Positions 21,980 to 50,538 of a stretch of 64,000 nt of DNA are shown here, piece by piece. Numbering within the stretch: position 1 is the first letter of the stretch; each line of letters opens with the position of its first letter. Source of the DNA: Polychytrium aggregatum (lineage: Eukaryota; Chytridiomycota; Chytridiomycetes; Polychytriales); assembly GCF_025602895.1 (NCBI RefSeq), contig NW_026516268.1, positions 62,001 through 126,000 on the forward strand. The letters run 5' to 3'. The notes under the pieces are model-generated. The model was not told the DNA's origin, made no database searches, and worked only from the letters and a program-made list of their open reading frames with translations. A program made the position numbers and the translations under genes.

Positions 21980-24736
21980 ATGTCAGCCAAACGCCCCCTT
22001 GAAGAACATCCTTCGGACAGCAGCTCGTCCTCTGACAAGATGGCCAGACTTGGCGATCCTGGTCCGCACTCAGACGCTGCGACCGATCGGCAGGACAGCG
22101 CCATATCGACCTCTACCGGCCGTATCTGTGCTGCCCTCGCCAGCCATGACATCCTCACGATCCTTGTCTGCAACGAATCCTTCCTGACAGCCCTCGATGC
22201 GACGACCCTGGTCAAGCTCCCGGAGCTGGCTCCTCAATACAAGGACATCCTCTCGCTTCTTTCCAAGGATGGATGGGTCCGCTTTATCTGCTCCAAAGCC
22301 GCCGCCGCGCCTGACTGCGGCATGCATGCCGTGCTCCAGAATCTCGGCGAATCTATTGATCCCATGGACGTCCTCCGAGGGATCGTCTACTTTCTCACTC
22401 GTGTGAAAGGATACCCCCGCAGCTTCGAGGCATACCAGAATGAACTGCCGCTGTGGTGGGCAGCAGCATCCTCGTCTTCGCTGTGCGATGTACTCGTTGA
22501 CGGGCTCAGGCTCAAATGCCCCTACAACAAGGATCTTAGCGACGAACAGCTCTGCGGCAACAGCTCCGCCCACCCAGTGTGGCAGTTCCGGGCGCTTGAC
22601 AGCTCCCGCATACTCTACTACCATGTCTCCACCCCGTGCTCAGGCGACTACGATTGCGAGGGAGGTTGCGATGTGCTATGCGTCGCCCGATTTGCTCATC
22701 ATCCATTCCATACTGCCGAGCAGGTATCCAACCTCCTTCCGCACGAGAAGTACGCCCTCTACACGCGGCCGCTGGGCTATCTTTCTCTCTTCAACTGCTC
22801 ATTTATGACGATATCCGGCTGGCCTGATTGGCTCGACCATGTGTCGCATCTCTCCTTCGACTGCGACTCGAATTTCTTCGACACAATCACAAGCCTGGAT
22901 GGGTTCCCGTTGATGTCGCAGCTAGAAAACCTGACTGTGTCAAGGAACGTCCCCACCCTCAAAGGCCTCCCAAGCGAGCTGAACTCGTTGAGCGAGCTGG
23001 ATTTGTCCCAGTGCCGGAGCCTTGCCAATCTCGAAGGACTTGGCAGTGTCCGCGACCTCACCAAGCTGACGCTACCCGAATCCATCCTCACTCTGGAAGG
23101 GCTGCCTCCATATCTGTCGAACCTTTCCCAGTTGGATTTGACCCGCTGCGAAAATCTGGTTCACCTCAAGGGATTTACAGAACCGCGCTACTTGCAGGTC
23201 CTGCAGCTTCCCAAGGGCCTTCGCAGCCTCGAGGGAATGCCACCGTGCATCAAACCCCTGCAAGACCTCGACCTCTCTGCATGCGTTGCCCTCCGTACTT
23301 TGGATGGTCTGTCGCAGCTGCCGTATATCCGAAAACTGCTCCTCCCTCCACTCCTCGAAAGCCTTGATATCGTCTACCGGTACATTGATCGCTTATCGAC
23401 GCTGGATATGCGCCCTTGCAAACTGATTACGTCGCTCGGGCAGTGTCCGTCCATGAAGAGCATGTACACGTTGCACCTCCCTCCCTCTATCGAGTCCCTG
23501 GAGGGGCTGCCCACCCAACTCGGGTCCCTCAGCAACCTCGATATGTGGACATGCGACCGCTTGAACTCTCTCAAGGGACTGCCACCAACTCCGAGGCTGT
23601 CGCGTCTCAAGCTGCCCCGGCCAAACGGCACTGCAAGAAGTCTATCGGACTGGATTGCCTGGCTGCGAGAGTCGCCTCAGTGGCAACATCATGTCGACCC
23701 GGATGGTCACTTGGTTTCGGTCCTACCAAAGGTGAATGAGTTGTGGACACCGCTCTCCTTGGGGGCAATCGAAGCTCTCTCGGAAACCTTCCTGTCGGTC
23801 CGGCGTCTCCACTTGGCCCTGGATGAGTCTACAAGCCGCCTGGCGCTTCTGCCGCCGATGCCTTTGGCGAGCTGTGTTTTTCTCCATGGTCCAATGCGCA
23901 ATCTCATGCAGCTGGCAAGGGGCGCCAGGGCCCTCAACATGATCGAACTTCGCTGCTGGTATCGTGGAACATTCGTCGGTTTCGAGCACGAGCTGCTCCA
24001 GCTGCCGTGGCCCATTCTCTATCTCTGCAAAGAACTGATGAACAACGGTCGAGTTCCGGTCGTTGCGGTCGCCTCCATGGCCGATCCGGGCCAGAGCAGC
24101 CAGCTCGATGAGCCGCAGCAATTCCCAGCCGACGATCAAATCCTGGACCTTGCTGATGACACAGAACCGATCAACATCCTCATGCCCCCAAACATTGATT
24201 CGCTTGAGGGCATGCCTCCCACGATCGACTTCATCCGGTGCTTGAACCTTCAAAACGCTCAAGTCAAGTCGCTCCAAGGCATGCCAGCCATGGAATCGCT
24301 TGAGACGCTACAGCTTGAAGTGGGCGCCACGGATTTGCAAGGAATGCCTCCAGTGCTGCCGTCCCTCACGACATTCAACATACGCAACTGTGAGCAACTG
24401 ACCGCACTCAGAGGGATGTCTGCGATGCCCAAGCTGACTCGGCTGTCGCTGCCCAAGTCGATCTCCACCTTGGACGGAATACCCAGGGACATGGAGAGCC
24501 TCGAGGAGATCGATATGAGCGTCTGTGGCAAGTTGAAGACACTCGAGGGCCTCCCAATCCTACCCCGGCTCAAGAAGCTGGTCTTGCCGTCCAGCCTCAA
24601 AATTCTGGGCATTCCAGATGCCCACATCCGCTCCATCACCGAGCTGGATGCGTCCAGATGTCCGAAGCTTGAGGTTCCCACCTTGGCCCATGAGGATGTC
24701 CCCAATCCTGCCATCGACAATGCCGTTACTGTTTGA
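21980..24736 (+). CDS. Leucine-rich-repeat protein with 45-residue double repeats
   Basis: Intronless, 918 residues. A charged Ser-rich start is followed by about 270 residues that I do not recognise (Cys- and Trp-containing, no F-box or signal peptide seen). From about residue 310 come LRRs in pairs: one 22-residue repeat of the form LxxLxLPxSIxxLEGLPxxL followed by a 23-residue repeat LxxLDLxxCxxLxxLxGLxxxxx. About five such 45-residue units occur (residues about 310-545), then a non-repeat insert with SLSDWIAWLRESPQW and a Trp-rich stretch, then about four more units to the C terminus. LRRs form a curved protein-binding surface; no enzymatic domain or transmembrane helix is visible, so it is probably an intracellular binding protein. 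Partner unknown. Confidence 0.85.
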   Translation: MSAKRPLEEHPSDSSSSSDKMARLGDPGPHSDAATDRQDSAISTSTGRICAALASHDILTILVCNESFLTALDATTLVKLPELAPQYKDILSLLSKDGWVRFICSKAAAAPDCGMHAVLQNLGESIDPMDVLRGIVYFLTRVKGYPRSFEAYQNELPLWWAAASSSSLCDVLVDGLRLKCPYNKDLSDEQLCGNSSAHPVWQFRALDSSRILYYHVSTPCSGDYDCEGGCDVLCVARFAHHPFHTAEQVSNLLPHEKYALYTRPLGYLSLFNCSFMTISGWPDWLDHVSHLSFDCDSNFFDTITSLDGFPLMSQLENLTVSRNVPTLKGLPSELNSLSELDLSQCRSLANLEGLGSVRDLTKLTLPESILTLEGLPPYLSNLSQLDLTRCENLVHLKGFTEPRYLQVLQLPKGLRSLEGMPPCIKPLQDLDLSACVALRTLDGLSQLPYIRKLLLPPLLESLDIVYRYIDRLSTLDMRPCKLITSLGQCPSMKSMYTLHLPPSIESLEGLPTQLGSLSNLDMWTCDRLNSLKGLPPTPRLSRLKLPRPNGTARSLSDWIAWLRESPQWQHHVDPDGHLVSVLPKVNELWTPLSLGAIEALSETFLSVRRLHLALDESTSRLALLPPMPLASCVFLHGPMRNLMQLARGARALNMIELRCWYRGTFVGFEHELLQLPWPILYLCKELMNNGRVPVVAVASMADPGQSSQLDEPQQFPADDQILDLADDTEPINILMPPNIDSLEGMPPTIDFIRCLNLQNAQVKSLQGMPAMESLETLQLEVGATDLQGMPPVLPSLTTFNIRNCEQLTALRGMSAMPKLTRLSLPKSISTLDGIPRDMESLEEIDMSVCGKLKTLEGLPILPRLKKLVLPSSLKILGIPDAHIRSITELDASRCPKLEVPTLAHEDVPNPAIDNAVTV

Positions 24737-43812: not shown

Positions 43813-46709
43813 ATGAGCCCACGCGAAGATACAAACCCCTCGTCTCCAGCCGAGGACGATCCCATGGAGGACGTATCACCCACCCACGACGACGGCGGCG
43901 ACGATCCAGTCCACCCGCCATCCAGTCGCCGAGCCACCCGTTCGCACCGTCGCAGTGACGGTGACGCCGATGGTGACGATGCCTACGGGGGCGACAATGG
44001 AGACGAGCACACCGGAAAGAACGGGCCCAACGGCGCCAGCCATCCCGACGGGAAGCAAGGCGATATCGAAGGCGACGAGGATGGCGACGGCGTCGATGCC
44101 GACAATGCCATGACCGGGGACGTGAACGGGGCAGATCCATCCTCCAAAGATGCCGATCCGTCTGGTAAGACGCCCTACTCTCCGTCCTCTCTATTCTGCC
44201 GCGATCTGTGCTTGATCAGGTCGGATCAGATCGGATCAGAAAGGCGCTCGTCAGATCAATGCGACTGCATTCGGAGCCAAAGGGGAGGCGAGATCTGGGT
44301 GCGATCCAGGGCTTTCGCTTTGGTTTGGCTCTGTTTTAAGCCGTAGTTTAGGCTCTGGTCTGGACCTATGCCTTTGATCTACGAGGCCGATCCATCAGAT
44401 CGATCTCGCCGGTCCGGCGGGAGGTGGAAGCGGTCGTTCGACGATCTGCCTGGCTCCGCTCTGTACATGTCTCGTGTTTGAAGCTGTCCAGGGGCTGCTC
44501 TGAGCGAGGCCAGCATGTTCCCCCCCCCGGATGTTTGATTCTCTGGATCCAATCGTGCATCGCTCGGGTTGCCCCCGATCGCCCCGAATGATGAACTCAA
44601 CTCTCGCCCTCCAAAGCTCGGCTAACCCGCTTCGCCAACTACTCTGCCTCCTTTTCCATCTATCCATCTGTCCATCTATCCATCTGTCCATCCATCCCAA
44701 CCGTAGCCAACGGCAGCTTCAAAGTCAGACTGGTGGATCCAAGCGAGGCAGCAACTTCAGCCCCCAAGGCAGCCCTGGTCCCGCAGCTCCACGAAATCAT
44801 CATCCCCAGCTACGCCGCCTGGTTCTCGCTCTCGAGGATCGACGACATTGAGCGAAAGGCCCTGCCCGAGTTCTTCAACGGCCGGAATAAGAGCAAAACC
44901 CCGATGATCTACAAGGACTATCGCGACTTTATGGTCAACGCCTCTCGTCTAAACCCGACCGAGTACCTGACCGTCACAGCCTGCCGCCGCAACTTGGCCG
45001 GCGATGTCTGTGCCATCATCCGGGTGCATGCCTTCCTGGAGCAGTGGGGCTTGATCAACTACCAGGTAGGTCGATCCGATCGGCGATATCATCCAGCCAG
45101 CTCGTCAGACTCTTGTACGGCTGTACTGATCATGCCCTTCCGAACCGACACATCTCCATGCACATGCCGACTTGTTGGTCGGCTCTAGGCCGATCCTGAA
45201 TCTCGCCCCGTCAACCTGGCGCCGAGCTTCACCGGACATTTCCGAGTGACGGCCGAAACGCCGCGCGGCCTGCAGCCGTTTGCTCCATATGCACCGATAT
45301 CCAAGGCCGTGCCGGAGGGCGCCAACAAGCCCAAGGCCGCGGCCGAGGAAAGCCTGCGAACAGCCGGACTGGCCAAAAACTCGTTCGAGTCGATTCCGGC
45401 AAAGCGAAAGTCCGAGACCGGCGATGAGTCGGCCACGCCCGGCGCCGGTGCTGGCAGCGCAGGCGAAGCCAAGCGATCCAAGCATTCATGCACAACGTGC
45501 GGCTCGGACTGCACTCGGGTCAGGTACCACAACACCAAGACGCCGTCGCTGGACGTGTGCTCGAGCTGCTATCTGGAGGGCCGGTTCACATCCACGGCTG
45601 TCTCGAGCGAGTTTGTCAAGCTCGAGGATCGACGCAGCGACGGCGAGCCGTTGGATGAATGGACGGATCAGGAAGTGCTTTTGCTGCTGGAAGGTCTTGA
45701 GCTCTACGACGAAGACTGGAACAAGATTGCCGAGCACGTCGGCACCAAGACCCGCAGCCAGTGTGTCCTCAAGTTCATCGGGCTGCCCATCGAGGATCCT
45801 TACAACAATGTCAAAATGAGCGAGCTGGGTCCGCTGCAGTACCAGCGCGTCCCCGTCGGGCCGGCCGACAACCCGGTTCTGTCCCTGACAGCCTTCCTGG
45901 CCAGCACTGTCAACCCCCAGGTTGTGGCTGCGGCTGCACAGCGGTCGCTCAAGGAGCTGAAGCAAATCAAAGCCTCGGTCGAAAGCCAAGCGGAGGTCAA
46001 GCCTGCCCCGGCCGATGAGATGGAGACCGACGGCGATGGCGGCAAGGCCCCGACACAGACCCAATCTGAGACGCCAGCTCCCGCAGCACCAGTTCCGTCG
46101 GAGGCACCCACAGCCAGCGCCAGTGTCACCGCTACCGCTTCCGCTGCAAGCGGCAAGGAGAACCTTGAAAAGGCAGCCACGGTGGCTCTCAGCGCTGCCG
46201 CCGTCAAGGCCAAGATGCTCTCGGAACAGCAGGAGCGGGAAGCCACGCGCTCGATCATCCAGCTCATCGAACTCCAAGCCAAGAAGATGGAGCAGAAGCT
46301 CAAGCACTTTGAAGAGCTCGAGGCGATCCTCGAGCAGGAGCGTCGCGAGATCGAGAAGGAGCGACATCAGCTCTTCATCGACCGCCTGGCTCTCAAGCGA
46401 GCCCAGCTACAGCACGAAGCCCAAGTCCAGGCACACGCACGATCAGCCAGCCACCACCACCAAAGCAGCGCGGGGGTTGCGACTGCAGGACATGCTTCTG
46501 TCAGCGCAGGTGCTGTCGCCGGCTCAGGCGCAAATGTCGAAGCTGACCACGATGCCAGCGCGCCGGCCAAGGATGCTGGAGCGGCGGCAAATGGACCCGA
46601 GACCTTTGTTCCCGAGTATGTGGCTGGCTCGGCAACGTCTGCAGATGCAATCGACCAGCAGCCGATCGAGGTCCCCAGTCCGTCCAAGAGTACCCTCATT
46701 AGTCTTTGA
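43813..46709 (+). CDS. SWI/SNF chromatin-remodelling subunit, SWI3/SMARCC type (3 exons)
   Basis: Exons 43813-44164, 44707-45065 and 45189-46709 join in phase to 743 residues. The N-terminal 117 residues are extremely acidic and Gly/Asp-rich. SWIRM domain at about 150-237 ([18 protein letters not shown]...[20 protein letters not shown]...[33 protein letters not shown]). ZZ-type zinc finger at about 338-375 (CTTCGSDC...[10 protein letters not shown]). SANT domain at about 394-440 ([41 protein letters not shown]). A leucine-zipper-like coiled coil at about 570-660 ends the conserved part, followed by an Ala/Ser/His-rich tail. This order is diagnostic for the SWI3/Rsc8/SMARCC scaffold of SWI/SNF or RSC, which dimerises in the core of the remodeller. 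Confidence 0.95.
44656..44696. repeat. 8-bp array (TCCATCTR)n in SWI3 intron 1
   Basis: About five copies of TCCATCTA/TCCATCTG ending 10 bases before the acceptor of intron 1 (44165-44706); a GATCGGATCA duplication is at 44218-44240. Confidence 0.9.
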
Positions 46710-47279: not shown

Positions 47280-50200
47280 ATGGCCGAGAAGCAGTGGTAC
47301 ATCCCCGAGGATGCCATCACCGACCGGTCGGCCAACCCCTTGGCAGTCGGTGGCTTTGGCGAGGTTTTCACTGCCTCATACTATGGCGCCCCTGTCGCCG
47401 TCAAGCAGCTCTATCGAGGCTACAACCAGAATGAACTCGCCGACTTTGGTCGTGAGATTGGCATCTGGCACAGACTCAGTCACCCTCATGTCCTTCCACT
47501 CCTCGGTGCTTGCGATACCGCAACCAAGCCCTTCATGGTCTCGCCGTTCATGCCCAACGGCACTCTCCATCGCCACATCTCGACAGCAACCCCTCCACGC
47601 CCCCTTGGCGAGAAGATCCGGCTCCTCTACGAAATCGCCTCTGGCATGGCATATCTCCACGGCAACAACATTGTCCACGGCGACCTCAAGTCTCTCAATG
47701 TGCTGCTCGATCGATCTTTCAGTGCCGTTGTGAATGACTTTGGCTTGTCCAAGACGAAACACACATCGGCCACCGCCAACCGAACCCGCCGCGACCAGCC
47801 GACGGGCGGCACTCTCGAGTATATGGCACCGGAAATGCTCGATGACGATAATCCAGTTGGATCGTCAAAGGCCACCGATGTCTATGCCTTTGGCATCACC
47901 ATATACGAGGTCCTCAACGACTGCAGGCCCATCTGGGTCACCGCCGATGGCCAGCCGATGAGGGAGAGGGTTATTGAGTCTCAAGTTCTTCGAAATCACC
48001 GGCCCAAGCAGCTCGAAGGAATCCCTGACGATATTCGTGCCCTCATCGAGCGCTGCTGGCACCAGGACCCCGCCGAGCGACCCAAGTTTTCCGAGATCCT
48101 TGCCATTCTCCATCGTTCCGATCGTTATCTACAGCAAGTCGAGGGGCAATTTGCTACTGTGCTCGTTGATGCCCGGCATTCTGATTCATCCCAGCACAAC
48201 CGAGAGATACACGTCTCCAGATCGACTCTGTCCCATCCGTTAACATCGGATCACCGTCCATCGGCCACACGAGAGCTCGATCCTGCCCCTGCCAAGGATC
48301 AAACCATTGCGCTCTCGTTGTTGAACCTTGACGGCGAAGATAACTTTGATTCGGACGAAGAAATCGATGACGAATACGAGCTCTGGTTTGCGATTGCGGG
48401 TGGTGGCGATCGAGAACAGTATCGAAATGCCTTCACCCGTGTCTATACCTCGTCCCGCCACCAGCCGCAAATCACGGTTCTAATCTCGGCGATAGCTACG
48501 TCCCAGCCTCCCCTGACCATCCGTCTGATCGCTGAGCTCTTTGGGGTTGACATTCGAGTCGTCCGCCGGTGCATCAGGGAGCTCGGGCCCGTCCTCAATG
48601 TCGGCAACCTGGGCAACGACATGGAGGGCAACTCGGCGGATATGGCCCAGAAACACAAGCCAATAGCTGCCTATTTGATAGGGGAAGAGTCCGTCAATGA
48701 ACCGTACCATGTTTCCGCAAAGTTTCACATGGCATTCGCCTCACAGTGCCTGCTGTCGATCCTCTCGCACGAGCCAGTGATCAACATCTGCGATATCTAC
48801 GACTTTCATGACAAGATATCCGACCTCAAGGACCGAGTCAAGGCCAAGATCACACCATCGCTTCGATACAGCGTCGCGCATTGGATCACACACTTTGTGT
48901 GGTGCTTGATGGACGGCGCGCAAGACCGTCATGCCTGGAGACAGTATCGCTCCTCCGGCTTGGCAGATTCCCTGACCCGCTTCTTATCGAGTCATATATT
49001 TTTCTGGCTCGAAGTTGGTTCGCTCATCGGCACCATCCCGGAGCTGTCCAAGCAGGCTGGCTTGCTTGAGGATGCAGTCGTGAAGTCACCGGGCCAAATG
49101 TTTGATGATGCCACGAAAGAACTGGTCAGGGATATCCATCGATTCATCCGAGAGTTTGCCGATCCAATTAGCAAGAGCGCACCGCAAGTGTATAACACAG
49201 GATATGCATTCACACCAAAGGAAACGGCGATATACAAGGCGTTTTCGACCCGACTGGAGGACAAGATCCCGTTCCTGGTCACGTTTGGCTTCAGGAAGAC
49301 CTGGGACTGTCCGGATACATCAATCGAGGGACATGTCGGTGCGGTGACCTCTGTCGCTGTTTCACCCGATGGAACCTGGTTTGCCTCGAGAGGTAGCGAC
49401 GGCACCATCAAGCTGTGGGATATCGCCAAAGGGAAGGCGAGGAAAACATTGACGGGACACTCAAATGTGACCGCGATAACCATTTCGGCCGATGGCAGAA
49501 CGATCGTGGCCATCCAGGCTGACTGTGCCATCAAGCATCTGGACGCCAACACCGGAGAATTCAAGGATATCTTTGCGTATCACAGCAAGGAAGTCTATCG
49601 ATCAGCGACTGCGCCAGACGGCACGTTTGTTGCAATTGTCAATAACGATGATGGCAATAGGATCAAGATTTGGGACACGGTCACCTGCAGCTTGAGGCAA
49701 ACGCTGGAGGGGCACACGAGATGGGTGAGCTCCTTGGCGATCTCGCCCGACGGCAAATGGGTTGTCTCTGGCTCTCGTGACAATACCGTCAAGGTCTGGG
49801 ACGCCGCCACGGGGCAGCTGAAATCAAGTCTCGAGGGGCACTTGGGGTGGGTCAACTCGGTCGCCATCTCACCTGACGGCACTTCGATCCTGTCGCGAGA
49901 CGATACCCACAAGCACATTGTCTGGGCCGGTCAAGGCGGTAAATTTGCTCACACCTCCAAAGGCCCATCTGACTTTGTTGCAGCACCCGGTTCCAGTCTC
50001 TCTCCCGAGTGGAGCGTAATCGATTGGCGCAATTCATACCAGTGGGCTCGTCATTGCCATCAACTCATCAAGCTGCCCCAGTACCTTGGTCGTTGCGACT
50101 TGGGCTCTCGATTTGCAGTCTTGTGGACGTCCGAGTCCCCGTACCGCCCAATGGTGGTCCTGGTAAGCCCGCATCGCTTTCTCACCACTCTCGCATCAAC

Positions 50201-50538
50201 TTTGACTGACCTTCCGTACGTACCATCCTCAGCCTATCTACCTCAACACCCCCGAGACCCAAATCGCCTTTGCCACTTACCTCAGCAACTCACCTGTTCC
50301 CGAGAGCCAAGCGCGTGCTGCCGACTTCATGGCAAGTCCCGAGGTTATGAACTTCAACGAGGAAAGTGCCATACTTGCCCAAGAACAGGCCATGCTCATC
50401 AAGGAAGCAAGAAGGACTGAGGATGCAGCCAGAAGGGCAGAAGCAGCTCGCAAGACAGAGGCAGCAAGGATAGCCGAGGAAGCAAGGAAGGCCGAAGAGG
50501 CTGCCAAATCAAAAGGGTGGCTCGGGTTCTTTGGCTGA
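47280..50538 (+). CDS. Tyrosine-kinase-like domain fused to an NLR-type arm and WD40 repeats (2 exons)
   Basis: Exons 47280-50162 and 50233-50538 give 1062 residues. Residues about 18-285 are a protein kinase of the TKL group: G-loop VGGFGEVF (23-30), Lys42, Glu59, H133-G-D135-LKSLN, D153-F-G155, A183-P-E185, DVYAFGITIYEVL and RCWHQDPAERPKF. All catalytic residues are present, with HGD for HRD as is common in TKL kinases. Residues about 385-650 match the winged-helix and helical arm that follows the NACHT ATPase in mushroom NLRs: PQITVLISAIATSQPPLTIR, LFGVDIRVVRRCIRELGPVL, a HFVWCL/HIFFWLEVGSLIGTI segment and SAPQVYNTGYAFTPKETAIYK. Residues about 682-885 contain five visible WD40 repeats (EGHTRWVSSLAISPDGKWVV). 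No P-loop ATPase is present. The C terminus is an Ala/Glu-rich coiled coil ending GWLGFFG. Likely a cytoplasmic sensor/signalling protein; ligand unknown. Confidence 0.9.

Follow-up and report, generated by a model that had tools for sequence, protein, structure and literature searches.

NLR proteins are held to switch through their NTPase. The joining of a kinase and WD40 repeats in one protein is known from the bacterial PkwA, and MLKL carries neither WD40 repeats nor an NLR arm. In the Podospora NWD genes, diversifying selection acts on WD40 codons 7, 9, 25 and 27, according to the accessible parts of two papers (PMC1805685, PMC2873952), and the accessible text of a fungal survey places the kinase at the C-terminus in 9 of 12 Sordariales NLRs with a PKinase domain (PMC12258605). 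As far as the available portions of the sources go, one survey lists no NLR in chytrids (PMC4986451), another gives NLR numbers from one upward for Chytridiomycota species (PMC12258605), and Chytridiomycota TIR-NLRs are mentioned elsewhere (PMC9815663). We found no described example of a kinase standing in place of the NLR NTPase in the open-access literature, which was mostly accessible as titles and the starts of abstracts.

The gene examined here lies on the forward strand between positions 47280 and 50538 of the window, i.e. the entire stretch of 64,000 nucleotides of Polychytrium aggregatum DNA that was analysed (contig C382), and encodes a protein of 1062 aa if its one predicted intron is removed. 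The stop-free frame starting at ATG 47280 extends to 50420 and joins kinase, arm and WD40 repeats, as had been claimed in the original prediction, whose coordinates and motif residue positions also proved right upon frame translation, Pfam searching and motif inspection. The intron (50163-50232) is one of 12 possible site pairs and was picked because its donor reads GTAAGC and its acceptor CAG. Further upstream, a SWIRM/Myb/ZZ chromatin protein is encoded at 45246-46706, and inspection of the ca. 570 bp between this neighbour and the gene revealed no extra domain. Elsewhere in the window, leucine-rich repeats were observed in a 918-aa frame (21980-24736, forward strand). A copy of the kinase-arm-WD40 gene on contig C35 is 99.8% identical across 3960 bp. 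The assembly also encodes radial spoke protein 3 and gave 47 matches to Chitin_synth_2, which together point to a flagellated, chytrid-like fungus.

The kinase carries all of the motifs expected of an active enzyme, namely a G-loop (residues 24-29), K42, E59, HGD (133-135), DFG (153-155) and APE (183-185), so that the earlier description of its motifs as intact was confirmed, at the level of sequence. Its best Pfam match is PF07714, and it is a putative TKL kinase, as in the original prediction. As was also anticipated, a P-loop NTPase is missing: the pattern [AG]x4GK[ST] occurs zero times in all 1062 aa, and no NTPase family was detected in the middle region. Because the NTPase is absent, the protein is by definition not an NLR (STAND); it does possess the C-terminal repeats (WD40, E 4.1e-36). 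A match of PF25174 to residues 679-895 falls below the cut-off of that family. By eye, motifs resembling the ELWFAIAG of the linker are also present in other kinase-type genes.

Table 1. Features of the kinase-arm-WD40 gene (window positions) and of the N-terminal region in diverged loci (positions within each locus).
Feature	Position	Strand	Basis or remark
Exon 1 of kinase-arm-WD40 gene	47280..50162	+	ATG frame; predicted donor GTAAGC at 50163
Predicted intron, 70 nt	50163..50232	+	GTAAGC...CAG; carries frame to stop at 50538
Exon 2, C-terminal tail, Ala/Lys/Glu-rich stretch, terminal GWLGFFG	50233..50538	+	Translation
Protein kinase domain, aa 20-276	47337..48107	+	PF07714 E 1.3e-51; catalytic residues present
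Linker, aa 277-378: acidic stretch, then ELWFAIAG strand-like motif	48108..48413	+	Sequence
Arm N-half, aa 379-495, NLR winged-helix position	48414..48764	+	Alignment A1
Arm C-half, aa 496-680, common to NACHT-WD40 genes, contains SAPQVYN.GYAFTPK	48765..49319	+	Alignment
WD40 repeats, aa 679-895	49314..49964	+	PF00400 E 4.1e-36, 5 stretches
Probably degenerate C-terminal blades	49965..50162	+	Inferred from sequence
Helical-looking region of ca. 200 aa	L047 1228-1899; L048 44-775 (-); L049 1037-1699; L041 1694-2428		Ahead of kinase

The middle region had been proposed, from motif order, to be the part that follows the NACHT in NACHT-WD40 proteins, and this assignment held. Within this genome, the arm of the window gene shares 47-56% identity with 10 NACHT-type arms; the motif SAPQVY is invariant in all 27 arm rows of alignment A1, and 34 columns are invariant among these 27 arms. 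In the seven NACHT-type loci checked (L033-L039), AVAGVGKS or AIAGVGKS and an LDEC Walker B were found in frame with the arm (L040 was omitted from this check because its NACHT is split across two frames), and L038 matched PF24883 with an E of 2.6e-27. The P-loop and LDEC were absent from all 12 kinase-type loci checked. Even in a distant NACHT gene (L061, whose NACHT is 34% identical), the arm region could be aligned, at 24% identity over 256 aa. Because of the identity to NACHT arms, the in-frame P-loop and LDEC, the alignment of L061 and the genome census described below, we conclude on sequence grounds that the arm of the window gene is an NLR arm by homology, i.e. the piece after the NTPase in NACHT-WD40 proteins.

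The middle region alone matched no Pfam family above the cut-off (only HTH_11, at E 0.34), and neither Pfam, NCBIfam, a PDB profile nor a PDB search with a NACHT-arm protein returned anything usable for the arm; AlphaFold run on it as a single sequence gave no usable model (pLDDT 39.4). From its position and sequence pattern, the arm may nevertheless be envisaged as a winged helix with a helical domain behind it. Searches of collections of viral contigs and of genome contigs confirmed no relatives of the arm.

Running arm residues 361-680 against the 64.7-Mb, 418-contig genome yielded at least 130 matches, which corresponded to at least 125 places after merging of pieces. Paired near-identical matches on two contigs, which presumably represent two haplotypes, were counted apart, and the census totals are lower bounds. 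Directly upstream of these arms, a NACHT was located at 85 places, a related kinase at 30, neither at 10 and both at none, with the upstream domain and the arm on the same strand in each class. The gap to the arm ranged from -17 to 286 bp for NACHT and from 227 to 576 bp for the kinase. The counts did not change between distance limits of 1.5 kb and 3 kb, and the lists used (149 kinase places, 138 plus 11 picked by eye, and 118 NACHT places, 113 plus 5) gave the same counts as smaller ones comprising 53 of the 138 kinase and 98 of the 113 NACHT places. With a same-strand kinase ahead of 30 of the at least 125 arms, and with the C35 copy, the architecture goes beyond chance.

At 23 of the 30 kinase-type places listed, kinase and arm are contained within one open frame (equal frame lengths), the exceptions being C101:71470, C111, C5, C179, C17, C236 and C37; in the locus on C179 (L044), an intron might separate kinase and arm. 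A pair of separate genes was ruled out by the single open frame in these 23 places, and an assembly chimera by the occurrence of 30 kinase-arm places. Among the 10 places with neither domain, C68:270168 (L041) in fact carries a diverged pseudokinase that is 46% identical to the window kinase, and C68:630832 (L028) keeps a kinase remnant. L032, L051, L052 and L053 are arm-WD40 genes with no NACHT or kinase in the upstream stretch examined; the other places are C363:253126, the partner of L041, and C37:30099, C359 and C407.

Comparison of the window gene with nine paralogs yielded pairwise dN/dS values of 0.149-0.201 for the kinase and 0.152-0.250 for the arm, and both parts therefore look to be under purifying selection. 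At synonymous sites, the window gene and its paralogs differ less across the kinase (0.43-0.78) than across the arm (1.00-1.63), a pattern suggestive of an exchange of kinase segments among paralogs. The kinase motifs are complete in 21 of 23 arm-linked kinases (counting haplotype copies and leaving out the L028 remnant). L041 is a clear pseudokinase, with EEYAET at the G-loop, R at the Glu position, and HGN and NLA for HGD and DFG; its segment 1190-4600 (C68:266600-271200) encodes a helical-looking N-terminal region, the pseudokinase and then the same arm as in the window gene. L026 shows HGN in the kinase and a stop in the arm. Because of the L041 pseudokinase, the HGN and stop of L026 and the L028 remnant, catalysis is not needed everywhere, and some copies have decayed. 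As a separate observation, tandem kinases were seen in this genome, a single 1201-aa frame encoding three domains and frames of 1409 and 1304 aa encoding two each (C123:30764-33337, C114:23753-26188, C40:23539-25974 and C13:224525-226957).

In an arm tree of 38 rows, the kinase label takes three changes, of which at least two are forced by starred branches. The arms of three kinase-type loci (L045, L046 and L060) form a group with that of L044 next to the main NACHT arms (support 92/98, unstarred), and the kinases of L045 and L046 sit in the kinase clade of the window gene (100/97; the L060 kinase is not in the tree). This suggests repeated fusion or swapping but does not prove it, since three alternatives were not rejected: a single clade of kinase arms gave an AU p of 0.466, constraining the arms of L045, L046 and L060 into the main kinase clade gave p 0.218, and a single clade of arm-linked kinases gave p 0.137 with only four other kinases in the comparison.

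Across the arm C-half, the DNA identity between certain kinase-type and NACHT-type genes lies at 88-93.5%. Specifically, L060 (1-573) is 93.5% identical to NACHT-type L039 over 573 bp, and L046 (13-718) is 88.8% identical to NACHT-type L036 over 706 bp. These long DNA matches, judged by identity and length, suggest that L060 and L046 are possibly mosaic between the classes, and would imply that the helical half and the sensor accompany both switches. In steps of 30 aa, identity between the arm N-half of L060 and five NACHT arms ranges over 13-55%; the arm N-half of L046 is mostly absent from the alignment. The edge of the match near L039:4973 may, however, reflect a drop in conservation instead of a breakpoint, because matches of the unmixed kinase-type L002, L021 and L025 end there as well. 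Between the main kinase class and the NACHT arms, mean identity is 43% in the N-half versus 60% in the C-half; mean identities within the classes are alike for the two halves (69 and 70; 71 and 76). These values would fit an N-half adapted to its switch, and a C-half that may be exchangeable together with the sensor.

In a scan of 31-aa WD40 cores from 11 kinase-type and eight NACHT-type loci, variability was highest at positions 5, 7, 23, 4 and 25, in that order, among the 27 kinase-class cores, and at 23, 5, 4, 7 and 25 among the 59 cores of the NACHT class. Positions 5, 7, 23 and 25 are the HET-E/HET-D positions numbered 7, 9, 25 and 27 in the accessible part of PMC1805685, shifted by an offset of 2, and position 4 adjoins them. 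Under a stricter pattern, 73 distinct four-residue combinations were counted in 79 repeats of 18 genes, and the pooled repeats thus display HET-E-type diversity at four surface sites of each repeat. In plain codon counts on the 79 cores, pN exceeded pS for both classes at position 5 and for the kinase class at position 7 (barely in the pool), slightly so at 19 (kinase class) and 27, neither of which is a recognition position, and not at 23 or 25. The repeats of the window gene itself are few and diverged (four cores by pattern, five by Pfam), and it has no near-identical repeats, its two comparable cores being 52% identical versus 100% in some other members. By analogy, the variability pattern of these WD40 repeats fits a recognition role.

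We consider it fairly probable that the window gene encodes a receptor kinase of the cytosol built on an NLR chassis, with the kinase under the control of an NLR-type sensor and arm. The original prediction had interpreted the gene along these lines; this stood as regards the homology of the arm, the lack of an NTPase, the single frame and the kinase motifs, and analogy is what speaks for recognition. In such a receptor, the WD40 propeller would bind a ligand, be it self, non-self or a guarded protein, and the arm, with its winged-helix position and helical half, would couple the propeller to the kinase, in the place where the arm of the sister genes sits between propeller and NACHT switch. 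Ligand binding would most likely relieve inhibition or pair two kinase domains, and the output would be phosphorylation of downstream proteins instead of nucleotide-driven oligomerisation. We infer ligand recognition, relay via the arm and activation of the kinase, as well as an involvement in allorecognition or defence. A bolder proposal, to which we give somewhat less than an even chance, is that of a separate receptor class, in which a kinase replaces the NTPase switch on the arm-WD40 chassis of NLRs, the class forming a multigene family alongside the NACHT genes and trading arm and sensor segments with them by recombination. On the same sensor, its diverged members would carry a kinase or pseudokinase together with an MLKL-like bundle, and act as ligand-gated, necroptosis-like executioners in one protein.

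Alternatively, the kinase might be an integrated decoy or guardee that serves as effector bait, with the arm and WD40 repeats signalling by joining NACHT-type partners via the shared arm. The accessible text of a survey interprets the PKinase domains of Sordariales NLRs as potential decoys (PMC12258605), and both the pseudokinase of paralog L041 and the arm C-half common to the NACHT genes would suit such a role. However, the intact catalytic residues of 21 of the 23 kinases and the low dN/dS of the kinase are at odds with mere bait, and divergence is greater in the arm N-half, the part that would contact a NACHT partner, than in the C-half. In our judgement, this reading is unlikely. The lack of sensing altogether, with an arm shared only by descent as a spacer in a scaffolded, constitutive kinase-WD40 protein, seems very improbable: the bacterial PkwA offers a precedent for such a chain, but the 34 invariant columns, the purifying selection on the arm and the hypervariable WD40 positions all argue against it.

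The kinase and an N-terminal helical bundle might also be ancestral and form an MLKL-like executioner regulated by the arm and WD40 repeats, in which case the clade of the window gene would have lost the bundle and would phosphorylate executioners in trans. Four diverged kinase-arm loci (L041, L042/L047, L043/L048 and L044/L049) indeed have a helical-looking region of ca. 200 aa ahead of the kinase, one of the four regions matched MLKL_N with an E of 0.042, and fungal HELL domains are joined to a kinase or pseudokinase according to the accessible part of PMC12881547. This MLKL_N match is nonetheless at chance level, as unrelated families scored E 0.058-0.16 in the same search; a PDB search with the helical-looking region returned no usable match, and inspection of the window gene revealed no such region up to the neighbouring gene. 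We hence regard this history as decidedly unlikely, and an MLKL-like bundle in the L041-L044 genes as a lead, not a result.

If the receptor kinase on an NLR chassis is real, a family that substituted a kinase for the switch while keeping sensor and arm would make the arm a portable coupling device. The kinase-type and NACHT-type genes would then allow two outputs governed by one sensor to be compared as they occur in nature. Moreover, the 85 NACHT-arm places (of at least 125, haplotypes counted apart) add a chytrid case beside surveys whose available portions give no NLRs, or numbers from one upward (PMC4986451, PMC12258605).

Among known systems, PkwA-type proteins likewise unite kinase and WD40 in one chain, but are bacterial. 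MLKL/RIPK3 tie a kinase fold to cell death, and some paralogs of the window gene, unlike that gene itself, have a helical-looking region at the N-terminus. Fungal proteases fused directly to WD40, TPR or ANK also place an effector enzyme on NLR-type repeats, but the enzyme is a protease, and the accessible part of the source mentions no retained NLR arm (PMC12881547). Fungal NLRs with a PKinase similarly link a kinase to NLR parts, but retain NACHT or NB-ARC as far as the available text of the surveys goes (PMC4986451, PMC12258605), whereas the window gene lacks an NTPase. The NWD/HNWD proteins of Podospora anserina (HET-E, HET-D and HET-R), compared here via the published WD40 positions, share with the window family a WD40 sensor that varies at the same four positions, yet contain a NACHT NTPase where the window family has a kinase. 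As for fungal NACHT-WD40 NLRs in general, the arm of the window gene is homologous to the arms that NACHT-WD40 genes carry in this genome.
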